Origin: an uncultured Chryseolinea sp.
Lineage (GTDB): Bacteria; Bacteroidota; Bacteroidia; Cytophagales; Cyclobacteriaceae
Reading direction: 5' to 3'
DNA length: 7,036 nucleotides
NCBI GenBank assembly: GCA_946478915.1
Contig: CAMLER010000262.1
Location: 1 to 7,036 of the forward strand
Each line of letters starts with the position of its first letter. The stretch's first letter is position 1. The position numbers and the translations under genes were made by a program. Under the pieces are notes generated by a model. That model was not told the DNA's origin and did not search any database. It worked only from the letters and a program-made list of their open reading frames with translations. Below, piece after piece: positions 2,643 through 5,034 of this stretch.

Positions 2643-2753
2643 ATGAACAGATTTTTTAACGGTTTTTTTCAGTTGATCAAAGCTGAGTTTATTTTTTACC
2701 TTACGGTTTCGATATTGGCTGGATTCATTTACCTGGTTCAGCTGATGCTCTAA
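2643..2753 (+). CDS. 36-residue single-helix membrane protein, candidate small subunit of cytochrome bd
   Basis: ATG at 2643 opens a 36-codon frame ending in TAA at 2751-2753; an in-frame TGA at 2628-2630 fixes this as the only ATG start. The peptide begins MNRFFNGFFQLIKAEF and continues as one hydrophobic segment (about residues 16-36) that runs to the C-terminus, with Arg-3 and Lys-13 favouring an N-inside orientation. A purine-rich AAAGGGAAGG lies at 2631-2640, only 2 bases from the ATG, so it could help initiation although spacing is short. The frame follows cydB by 48 bases on the same strand. Single-helix subunits of 30-40 residues (CydX in E. coli, CydS in Geobacillus) are established parts of bd oxidases, often encoded after cydB. 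I see no clear residue match to CydX, so the role is inferred from size, topology and position. A chance ORF is the main alternative. Confidence 0.65.
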   Translation: MNRFFNGFFQLIKAEFIFYLTVSILAGFIYLVQLML

Positions 2754-2839: not shown

Positions 2840-3550
2840 TCAAAAAATATTCCTCGCCAGTATCTTCATCACATCATTCTTATAATTCCTGCCGATCGGA
2901 ATGCTGTGTTTTCCGATTTCAACATCGGTTGCCGAATACGCATCGATCTTTTCAAGATTAACAATAAAGGACCGGTGTATACGCAAGAATTGCTCGCGCG
3001 GTAAACTTTCTTCCAGATAACTGATCTTTTGCTGTGTGACAATTTCCCTTTCTCCTGTCTTGACTTTTACATAATCCTTAATGCTTTCGATATAAAGAAC
3101 ATCCGCCATTTTTGTTTTGATCATTTTCTTATCAACCTTGAAATAGACATAGTTGTCAGACACCACATCCGGCTTGGAAGCATTTGCGGGAGTGGCGGGC
3201 TGATGAAGCACCTTGGCAACGGCCTTTAAAAAACGATCAAAGGGAATGGGTTTCAAAAGGTAATCAACAATTTCCAACTCGAAGCCTTGCAGCGCATAAT
3301 CTCTGAATGCTGTAGTGAAAATTACTTTGGGTGGATTCTTAAGGGTCTTAAGAAAATCAATGCCCGACAGCTTGGGCATTTGAATATCAAGAAAGATAAG
3401 ATCCACCGAATGCTGTTGAAGAAAAGTAAAAGCTGAGACCGCGTTTCGAAAGGTGCTCAAGAGCTGCAACTGTTCAACTTTTGCAACATAAGATTCGAGA
3501 ATCTCAATAGCGAGCGGTTCATCATCAACTATAATACATTTTATGCTCAT
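2840..3550 (-). CDS. LytTR-family response regulator transcription factor
   Basis: This is a two-component response regulator with an N-terminal receiver domain (about residues 3-118) and a C-terminal LytTR DNA-binding domain (about 133-235), joined by a short Ala/Pro-rich linker. The receiver has the acidic pair Asp-9/Asp-10, the phospho-acceptor Asp-55 in FLDIQMP, Thr-79/Thr-80 and the conserved Lys-100 in LLKPIPF. The LytTR part shows IESIKDYVKV (154-163), FLRIHRSFIVNL (188-199) and IPIGRNYK (217-224), all typical of the AgrA/LytR fold that binds DNA through beta strands. Its 236 residues are the usual length. The ATG overlaps the stop of the upstream kinase gene by 4 bases (ATGA), so the two are co-translated and almost certainly cognate partners. 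The target genes cannot be read from this window. Confidence 0.95.
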   Translation of the reverse strand: MSIKCIIVDDEPLAIEILESYVAKVEQLQLLSTFRNAVSAFTFLQQHSVDLIFLDIQMPKLSGIDFLKTLKNPPKVIFTTAFRDYALQGFELEIVDYLLKPIPFDRFLKAVAKVLHQPATPANASKPDVVSDNYVYFKVDKKMIKTKMADVLYIESIKDYVKVKTGEREIVTQQKISYLEESLPREQFLRIHRSFIVNLEKIDAYSATDVEIGKHSIPIGRNYKNDVMKILARNIF

Positions 3551-4605
3551 ACATCACTTCCGTTTCGATTTTGAATTGTCAGAATTACCAAAAAGGTTTC
3601 TTGCCCATTAATAATTTTCAGTTCGTGATGGTCGGGATAAATCAGGTCAAGACGACGCCTTACATTGGCTATTCCTATCCCTTCTTTTTTGTTTACACCA
3701 TTCAGGACGGCCTTATTGTTTTCAACCTTTGCCAGGATGCCATGAGGCTGCGCATCAATCGAAACCTTTACCCATGACTGCTGTAGTTCTTCGCTGGCTC
3801 CATGCTTAAAACAATTTTCAACGAAAGGCAACAACACAAGTGGTGCAATCTTCCTGTCTTTAAGGTTTCCGGTCACGCGAATATCTATATCGACCTTATC
3901 GCCGTAACGGATCTTTTCAATATCCCCATAGTTTTTTATGAACTTTATTTCCTTTTCAAGCGACACCTCCTCGCTCGTGCATTCATATAGCATATAATTG
4001 ATGAGTTCCGACAATTTGAGGACCATTTCGGGTGCACGTTCCGACTTTTTTAAAGTCAAAGCATAAAGATTGTTCAAGGTGTTAAAAAGAAAATGGGGAT
4101 GGATCTGAGTCTTCAGAAATTTTAATTCCGCTTGAAGCTTTTCCTGCGTTAGCACTTGTTGCGCCTGCTGGTTTGCATACCAATATTTTAACAACTTAAT
4201 CGCTACCGCCACAAAAGTTACCGGATAGATGGCGACGATCATCTTGACAATCTTTGGGAAATAAAAGAACGGGTCAGCAAGCGCCTGAGGATAGTACAGC
4301 GGATAGTCGATATTAAAAGCGATGTACCGTTGTATTATCCCGATTCCAAAGGAGGATACTAGCAGCCAGGAAAAAAACTCAGCGTACTTGCCCGGAAGAA
4401 GGAATTTGGGGAGAAGAAAATAAAGGACGAAATATGTAAATGCCATCTTGCCTGGCAGGTAGATCAGTTCTTCGAAAAAGAATTGATCATACTTGTCTTC
4501 AAATGATCCGTACAGCCACGCGTAGAACACGATGTGAGCCACCCAGAACAGGATGTGCTGCAGGATGCGATTTCGAAAAAGCCAGTCTAATTTGCGCTTC
4601 AGCAA
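3547..4605 (-). CDS. LytS/YehU-type membrane sensor histidine kinase, apparent TTG start
   Basis: This is an inner-membrane histidine kinase of the His_kinase (LytS/YehU) family. Four predicted membrane helices fill the N-terminal part (roughly residues 14-32, 47-70, 76-96 and 117-140), with no separate sensor domain. A helical linker (142-168) leads to the phosphorylation motif QIHPHFLFNTLNN at 167-179, where His-171 of PHFLFN is the conserved family histidine. The ATP-binding part has the N-box LPFVENCFKHG with Asn-264 and the glycine-rich GIGIANVRRRL at 309-319. The frame opens after a stop at 4618-4620 and contains no ATG before Met-54, which would delete the first helix. The N-terminal LDWLFRNRILQHILFW looks like the normal start of Bacteroidota homologues, so TTG at 4603-4605 (or the next codon, CTG) is the likely start. 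It lies upstream of, and overlaps, the LytTR regulator gene. The ligand sensed is unknown. Confidence 0.93.
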   Translation of the reverse strand: MLKRKLDWLFRNRILQHILFWVAHIVFYAWLYGSFEDKYDQFFFEELIYLPGKMAFTYFVLYFLLPKFLLPGKYAEFFSWLLVSSFGIGIIQRYIAFNIDYPLYYPQALADPFFYFPKIVKMIVAIYPVTFVAVAIKLLKYWYANQQAQQVLTQEKLQAELKFLKTQIHPHFLFNTLNNLYALTLKKSERAPEMVLKLSELINYMLYECTSEEVSLEKEIKFIKNYGDIEKIRYGDKVDIDIRVTGNLKDRKIAPLVLLPFVENCFKHGASEELQQSWVKVSIDAQPHGILAKVENNKAVLNGVNKKEGIGIANVRRRLDLIYPDHHELKIINGQETFLVILTIQNRNGSDV

Positions 4606-4836: not shown

Positions 4837-5034
4837 ATGCGAAGACTATTGTTCATTTTGGTCGGTATAATCAGCGCGGGATTCGCGCTGTACTTTTTTG
4901 CCTGCAGCACTGTGGATATGTTTAAAATGATCGTACCACGATCGGCCTCAAAAGTGAGGACAGTAAAGCAGGTAATCATATATTCTATACCACCATTGGA
5001 AAAATCAGAAGTTGACCCGATACTGTATCAATAA
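4837..5034 (+). CDS. Small hypothetical protein with N-terminal membrane or signal segment
   Basis: I do not recognise this 65-residue frame. It starts MRRLLFILVGIISAGFALYF, a basic N-terminus followed by a hydrophobic stretch typical of a signal peptide or membrane anchor. FFAC at 20-23 resembles a lipobox but has Phe at the positions usually held by Leu and Ala/Ser, so lipidation of Cys-23 is doubtful. The remainder (about 40 residues) is polar with several Lys and Val and ends SEVDPILYQ. There is no Shine-Dalgarno sequence and only a weak -7-like AAATTTTG at 4777-4784. Its stop overlaps the convergent ggt stop by 7 bases. The signal-like N-terminus supports a real gene; the short length and overlap leave a chance ORF possible. 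Confidence 0.5.
   Translation: MRRLLFILVGIISAGFALYFFACSTVDMFKMIVPRSASKVRTVKQVIIYSIPPLEKSEVDPILYQ

Follow-up and report, generated by a model that had tools for sequence, protein, structure and literature searches.

A conserved 36-residue single-helix peptide encoded behind cydAB in an uncultured Chryseolinea, a candidate small subunit of cytochrome bd

INTRODUCTION

The small subunits described for cytochrome bd oxidases are similar in size to the peptide studied here and consist of a single helix (PMC8951039). CydX and CydS stabilise the enzyme and CydH covers an oxygen access site in CydA; the mycobacterial bd oxidases function with CydA and CydB alone (PMC8951039). CydS of the Geobacillus thermodenitrificans bd (5DOQ) is a single helix of ~4 kDa, and CydH (YnhF; CydY in the review) of E. 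coli bd-I is a single-helix subunit encoded away from the operon (PMC8951039).

CydX of E. coli (YbgT, PF08173; with AppX) has 37 residues and is encoded directly behind cydB; its motif, YxxWxxG(15)E/D, spans 97% of homologues, and in a screen of 1095 species it is described as confined to Alpha-, Beta- and Gammaproteobacteria and tied to a long Q-loop (PMC4325964). The same source describes CydY, a non-CydX sORF behind cydB of Epsilon- and Deltaproteobacteria with a long-Q-loop partner, and CydZ (DUF2474, PF10617), a small single helix behind the cydB of a short-Q-loop oxidase; both have a tryptophan at the start of the helix, which in CydY is absolutely conserved (PMC4325964). In Bacteroidota, the small membrane protein CydW of the cyd operon of Porphyromonas gingivalis and other Bacteroidales has 82 residues, is encoded upstream of cydA and is given as of unknown function (PMC4668044).

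Here, we have analysed the 36-residue ORF that follows cydAB in a stretch of 7,036 nucleotides from an uncultured Chryseolinea sp.; this whole stretch is called the window throughout. An earlier note, made from the letters alone, had proposed that the ORF encodes a new small subunit of a Bacteroidota cytochrome bd. The portions of the open-licence literature on cytochrome bd, CydX, CydW, Bacteroidetes and Chryseolinea that we drew on contain no description of this peptide.

RESULTS

The cydAB locus and the ORF behind it

The features of the window that matter for the argument are as follows.

238-1566, + strand: cydA, bd oxidase subunit I, 442 aa (Pfam PF01654, E 5.3e-146)
1566-2594, + strand: cydB, bd oxidase subunit II, 342 aa (Pfam PF02322, E 1.4e-70)
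2595-2642, + strand: linker of 48 bases from the cydB stop to the peptide start, containing TGA 2628-2630 and a purine-rich stretch
2643-2753, + strand: ORF of the 36-aa single-helix membrane peptide, ATG to TAA (from homologues and helix prediction)
2754-2819, no strand assigned: tandem repeat of the heptamer ATTCGTT, 9.4 copies, 94% matches, its first base following the peptide stop codon
2840-3550, - strand: LytTR-type response regulator, convergent neighbour (family by reading the sequence; same place in genome G102)
3547-4605, - strand: LytS-type sensor histidine kinase, convergent neighbour (family by reading the sequence)

Among solved structures, 9r2g_A and 5doq_A are closest to the CydA of the window; 5doq_A is the second-best match (E 5.8e-97), and the 442-residue CydA aligned to it along 2-433. 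From the length of CydA and this full-length match to 5doq_A, which we take to be a short-Q-loop bd oxidase, the oxidase of the window is judged to be of the short-Q-loop type.

On the + strand, no terminator-like or promoter-like site was found in the linker (2595-2642), and the sole terminator-like site between 2400 and 2950 lies within cydB (2497-2511; shuffle mean 0.6). The minus strand has one promoter-like site (2608-2581; shuffle mean 1.4), and a scan of the window against Rfam gave nothing at gathering scores. No CydW-like ORF is among those listed in the 237 bases upstream of cydA, where the window ends; CydW is presumably a member of Pfam DUF4492. On the far side of the kinase gene, a 65-aa ORF (4837-5034, + strand) looks, by eye, hydrophobic at its start and contains FFACS, which resembles a lipoprotein signal; it has no match in Pfam or NCBIfam.

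The ORF encodes the 36-aa peptide MNRFFNGFFQLIKAEFIFYLTVSILAGFIYLVQLML. The earlier note had taken its start to be fixed by an upstream in-frame stop, and indeed a TGA lies at 2628-2630, four codons 5' of the ATG, which is the first start codon after it. The other features that it had read from the frame are likewise present. The ORF lies on the same strand as cydB and 48 bases 3' of it (cydB stop 2594, ATG 2643). Immediately 5' of the ATG stands the purine-rich stretch AAAAGGGAAGGC, then A, a feature of the window without conservation in the G102 locus L088, the one relative compared at DNA level. The single hydrophobic helix running to the C-terminus appears both in the hydropathy of the peptide (maximum Kyte-Doolittle mean 2.07 over a 19-residue span) and in the AlphaFold2 model from the eleven-row alignment described below, which predicts one helix over residues 2-35 with a mean pLDDT of 92. 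As the positive charges stand close to the start and none is found among the last 20 residues, the positive-inside rule suggests an N-inside/C-outside orientation.

The frame alone is little proof of a gene, because hydrophobic ORFs of this length also arise in shuffled DNA. Among 3000 dinucleotide shuffles of 2595-2839, 17% gave an ATG ORF of 30-70 aa beginning in the first 100 bases and 1.9% gave such an ORF that was equally hydrophobic. It is homology that decides.

A family of small proteins conserved in sequence

Protein searches covered 5.8 billion proteins. A single-sequence search with the window peptide returned two proteins, with E 6.6e-11 and 1.1e-8, and profile rounds led to ten database homologues, P0001-P0010, of 36-59 aa. 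In the alignment, P0001 (36 aa) and P0002 (38 aa) are 83% and 75% identical to the window peptide, and the sequence of P0003 is that of the G102 peptide. In the final round the ten scored from E 7.5e-18 to 8.6e-11; five of them were in the query profile, two were near-copies of profile rows, and three were new (P0008-P0010, E 1.5e-12 to 8.6e-11). That significant homologues exist argues that the ORF is more than a chance frame.

Over the eleven rows of the window peptide and P0001-P0010, ten columns are invariant: M1, F5, G7, A14, E15, I17, Y19, L25, Y30 and Q33. Conservation by helix face peaks at 100 degrees and is not significant (permutation p 0.12). P0008, the sole member tried, had no match in plasmid and phage collections.

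P0004 and P0005 have 59 residues, and their initial residues correspond to an out-of-frame reading of a cydB end and linker of the L088 type: the misread start matches the L088 reading VKVIRRGNS, then a stop in L088, then DFVYDHKTFDMMGS. Since these N-termini are a misread cydB end and linker of the G102 type, the genes of P0004 and P0005 very probably sit behind cydB.

The earlier note had suspected a small gene that annotation misses, which agrees with the family libraries scanned here, Pfam and NCBIfam: neither has a model for the peptide. The window peptide gave nothing in either at E 10, and no Pfam domain is recorded for any of the ten database homologues. The eleven peptides of profile A7 (the window peptide, the look-alikes L081 and L090 described below, and eight database proteins, P0004 and P0005 being left out as close to P0003) gave no NCBIfam match and only stray Pfam matches, to DUF2770 in two rows (best E 0.033) and to MitoNEET_N in one row (E 0.028). 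Family profile A6 found no PDB chain of at least 20 residues at E 10, in a search whose sensitivity is limited by the short chains.

Descent from the end of cydB was considered and rejected, as the peptide has no similarity to CydB: it does not align to CydB at E 100, and with the family profile no CydA or CydB from the loci scored above 5.1 bits. In alignment A8, which joined CydB, linker and peptide, the peptide was paired with the final CydB helix of the other rows.

Selection on the peptide gene

The comparison at DNA level is that of one pair of short sequences, from the window and G102 (loci L088 and L148). The two peptide genes differ at 32 of 108 bases with zero indels, the changes being distributed 13/3/16 over the three codon positions, and pN is 0.22 against a pS of 0.56. 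When the same changes were re-dealt at random 20,000 times, equally few amino-acid changes were found in 1.1% of the re-deals and the observed BLOSUM score was reached in 0.04%, while a stop codon arose in 56%. The earlier note had proposed a test for synonymous-biased substitution and had named frame-disrupting indels as evidence against its reading; the bias is seen in this pair, and the frame is intact in G102, the one whole genome found to carry it. CydB is 73% identical between these two loci (pN 0.16, pS 0.81), and the linkers (48 bases in the window, 46 bases in L088) are poorly alignable, with 26 identities over 57 alignment columns.

The conservation at protein level across eleven rows is a stronger argument than these codon statistics from one pair. 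Judged by sequence comparison, the ORF at 2643-2753 is a real, conserved small-protein gene under selection, without a family model in Pfam or NCBIfam.

Distribution behind cydB

In G102, cydA, cydB and the peptide gene are followed by a convergent LytTR regulator, a kinase and, further on, a gamma-glutamyltransferase-like gene (by reading), and the peptide (L088) starts 43-46 bases 3' of cydB, compared with 48 in the window. Comparing the window with G102, the LytTR regulator (94%) and the kinase (88%) show a much closer resemblance than does the neighbouring CydB (73%). A LytTR orthologue is also found in G001, G002, G003, G004, G005 and G169, with no cydAB within the stretch examined, and searches of these six genomes gave no strong match to the peptide.

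The GTDB genus of G102 also contains Chryseolinea lacunae (G002), C. serpens (G004) and Chryseolinea sp. H1M3-3 (G003). Six genomes of this genus were searched; four matched at E up to 1, strongly in G102 alone. Wider samples, which overlap and were each drawn from a larger group, gave matches in 10 of 390 genomes of the family (E up to 0.1), 22 of 390 of the order (profile A2, E up to 0.1), 13 of 293 relatives of G102 (profile A3, E up to 0.05) and 5 of 395 of the phylum (profile A5, E up to 0.01), and in each of these samples only G102 fell below 1e-4. Among 201 genomes of the family of G006, profile A6 gave two matches at E up to 0.001, namely G102 (5.4e-21) and G003 (1.5e-5). With profile A7, which contains L081 and L090, 10 of 292 relatives of G246 matched at E up to 0.01.

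The earlier note had named a lack of conservation downstream of cydB in close relatives as refuting its proposal, and this part of its test went against it: none of the 80 nearest cydB loci (up to 11 kb, closest named relatives included) has a family match, the best score being 12.3 bits. Its suggestion of a lineage-specific peptide agrees with this distribution, in which the peptide stands behind cydB in the window and G102 and at 0 of the 80 loci. A census of hydrophobic small ORFs (25-70 aa, starting with ATG, GTG or TTG) found them downstream of cydB, with a start at most 150 bases from its stop, at 7 of 80 loci, and within 400 bases upstream of cydA at 11 of 77. These ORFs were rejected as equivalents of the peptide, which by eye they do not resemble; when four of them were scanned, L025 matched the PepSY-associated TM region and the others gave nothing convincing.

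A tree of CydA and CydB had 80 rows: besides the window and G102 it took in all of the 80 loci except L037 and L050, in which the genes are incomplete. The window, G102 (L148) and L003 form one clade with an SH-aLRT of 99, and the pair of window and G102 has a support of only 52. Derived CydA sites common to window and L148, window and L003, and L148 and L003 number 1, 1 and 3, and derived CydB sites 5, 1 and 1, respectively. L003 is 84.8% identical to the window in CydA and 72.5% in CydB, has no peptide behind cydB, and has its cydAB apart from the LytTR gene. The presence of L003 in the same clade without the peptide implies either gain in a subset or loss in L003, and implies that the bd enzyme can work without the peptide there.

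Distant look-alike ORFs

Whole-genome matches at E 0.001-0.1 were counted as chance unless raised by an independent profile. Isolated ORFs in G003 (L081/L166, 39 aa) and G246 (L090/L165, 37 aa) had first E-values at chance level over 390 genomes. With a profile built without them they scored 29.7 bits (L081) and 29.4 bits (L090), and L081 reached E 1.5e-5 in the G003 genome with a profile that excluded it. Their identity to the window peptide is 36% and 31%, respectively, and these orphans could form a family of their own with a similar build.

A profile including L081 and L090 added L167 (G281) and L168 (G345) and, with lower scores, L169 (G037), L170 and L171; L167-L171 are less independent because the profile contained L081 and L090. 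L149, L151 and L161 reached 20-22 bits with the profile built without L081 and L090, but they cover part of the profile only, L149 lying within an open piece of 21 aa. By eye, none of L165-L171 stands beside cyd in 3-kb stretches. L165-L170 have 37-39 aa where the start is plain, L168 having 71 aa from a GTG, and their neighbourhoods look unrelated, save that L169 and L170 have common neighbours. The weak L171 (E 0.0015; 1501-1608) is a hydrophobic ORF of 35 aa that stands, by eye, shortly before putative succinate dehydrogenase subunit genes.

The start-side pattern G-x(4)-[ILV]-[KQ]-x-E is found in 11 of 11 family members, in 7 of 7 orphan loci and in 7 of 16,488 background pieces with a length of 25-80 aa. 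Because the orphan loci had been chosen by profile, the shared pattern is a description and not proof of kinship. Of six genomes with such look-alikes, G037, G109 and G324 gave a CydA match at E 1e-20, and G246, G281 and G345 gave none. Should the look-alikes in the genomes without a CydA match be true relatives, bd oxidase cannot be the only partner of the wider group.

Comparison with described small subunits

Like CydX, the peptide is a small single-helix protein directly 3' of cydB, but it has no CydX match in Pfam or NCBIfam, its hydrophobic helix in the window reaches the C-terminus, and the CydX motif occurs in 0 of 11 family sequences, as the reading of the window alone had led one to expect. 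It shares with CydZ a place behind the cydB of an oxidase judged to be short-Q-loop, but it has no Pfam DUF2474 match and the helix lacks tryptophan in 11 of 11 sequences; tryptophan occurs in one of the eleven, P0004, within the N-terminal extension. CydY is likewise a non-CydX sORF behind cydB, but its conserved tryptophan is absent from the peptide, and a long-Q-loop partner is judged absent here from the length and alignment of CydA.

With CydS the peptide has in common the size and the single helix, and CydH, encoded outside its operon, resembles in this respect the distant look-alikes, but shows no sequence relation to the peptide in the family-library and PDB searches. Since no PDB chain was found at E 10, a relation to the chains of CydS, CydX or CydH could not be detected. 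CydW is likewise a small membrane protein encoded in a Bacteroidota cyd operon, but it has 82 aa and its gene lies upstream of cydA, whereas the peptide has 36 aa and lies behind cydB. In G102, G003, G002 and G001, CydX (PF08173) and CydZ (PF10617) were each over the Pfam cut-off in 0 of 4 genomes, with sub-threshold matches only; as PF08173 passed in 2 and PF10617 in 0 of 14 control genomes, the CydZ negative is without a positive control. For want of sequence marks and of family or PDB matches, the peptide is therefore not filed under CydX, CydY, CydZ, CydS, CydH or CydW, although it may work like them.

DISCUSSION

Our preferred reading, to which we give a probability of roughly one half, sees in the peptide an accessory subunit of cytochrome bd that is restricted to one lineage and is analogous but not homologous to CydX. 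Its place behind cydB, its size and single helix, the selection on its gene and the lack of CydX and CydZ over cut-off in four related genomes suggest such a role. The case is weakened by the 80 nearest cydB loci, none of which has the peptide, by L003, and by the look-alikes away from cyd. L003 and the two-subunit mycobacterial enzymes together indicate that a subunit of this kind is not always needed. Of the earlier proposal of a bd small subunit, the selected gene behind cydB stands, with its position, size and selection, while membership in the oxidase is something we still infer.

How the peptide could act may be pictured from the better-studied enzymes. We infer that it would be translated from the same message as cydAB and would span the membrane once as a helix, its positively charged start lying on the cytoplasmic side, a topology taken from the positive-inside rule. 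The helix could pack on CydA or CydB, where it would stabilise the haem-bearing core or cover a lipid-facing opening, in the manner of CydX, CydS and CydH elsewhere.

The main rival, which we regard as quite possible, is a free-standing small membrane protein, for example one of envelope stress or membrane regulation, that became attached to the operon. Its gene would stand between cydB and the LytTR gene by chance and might be co-transcribed, and its product would not bind the oxidase. The isolated genes of the weaker relatives (L081/L166, L165, L167, L168 and L169) fit this reading, as do the three genomes G246, G281 and G345 that have such genes and no CydA match at E 1e-20. So does the setting: cydAB stands beside the LytTR gene at both loci seen (window and G102), and in six genomes a LytTR orthologue without adjoining cydAB goes with no strong peptide match. 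However, four distinct members (the window peptide, P0003, P0004 and P0005) lie surely or very probably behind cydB, and the orphan group may be a different family that is merely built alike.

It is conceivable, though we consider it doubtful, that the peptide represents a single branch within a broader, so far undescribed Bacteroidota group of single-helix peptides with the start-side pattern G-x(4)-[ILV]-[KQ]-x-E in common. These would be interchangeable accessory helices for different membrane complexes, the cyd branch serving the bd oxidase and the orphan branches other partners. The look-alikes in genomes without a CydA match weaken the idea of a strict bd-only role for this wider group.

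We find it improbable that the ORF encodes a toxin-like membrane peptide as in type I toxin-antitoxin systems, kept silent by an antisense RNA. Shortness, hydrophobicity, patchy distribution and isolated relatives between genes would suit a toxin, but the operon-like place behind cydB would not, nor would the conserved charged and polar residues (E15, Y19, Y30, Q33). Moreover, the window has no Rfam match at gathering scores, P0008, the only member tried, has no plasmid or phage match, and the single minus-strand promoter-like site (2608-2581) compares with a shuffle mean of 1.4.

Very unlikely, too, is a cis-acting element, in which the ORF, as a translated stretch or as RNA, would act on the end of the cyd message or on the convergent LytTR message. 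The ORF does lie where the two sets of genes converge, ahead of the LytTR stop, and in the window has the tandem repeat directly 3' of it, but selection acts on the amino acids, the ATTCGTT repeat is missing 3' of the L088 peptide in G102, and no Rfam match was found in the window. A functionless chance ORF, or a degraded or duplicated cydB end, is scarcely credible: the 1.9% of shuffles with an equally hydrophobic ORF and the 80 nearest cydB loci without it are outweighed by significant homologues with frame and length kept, by the synonymous-biased change between window and G102 and by the failure to align with CydB, so that the chance reading is already refuted by the homologues, unless those too are untranslated.

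Returning to the accessory-subunit reading, small subunits of bd oxidases are known in several bacterial groups, often without a clear sequence relation to each other. If the peptide does bind CydAB, it would add a separate case of such a subunit, one from Bacteroidota that lacks the tryptophan found in CydX, CydY and CydZ, and the need of a bd oxidase for a small helix could then be tested with sister strains that have or lack the peptide. Whatever its function, the peptide belongs to a conserved small-protein family that is not in Pfam or NCBIfam.
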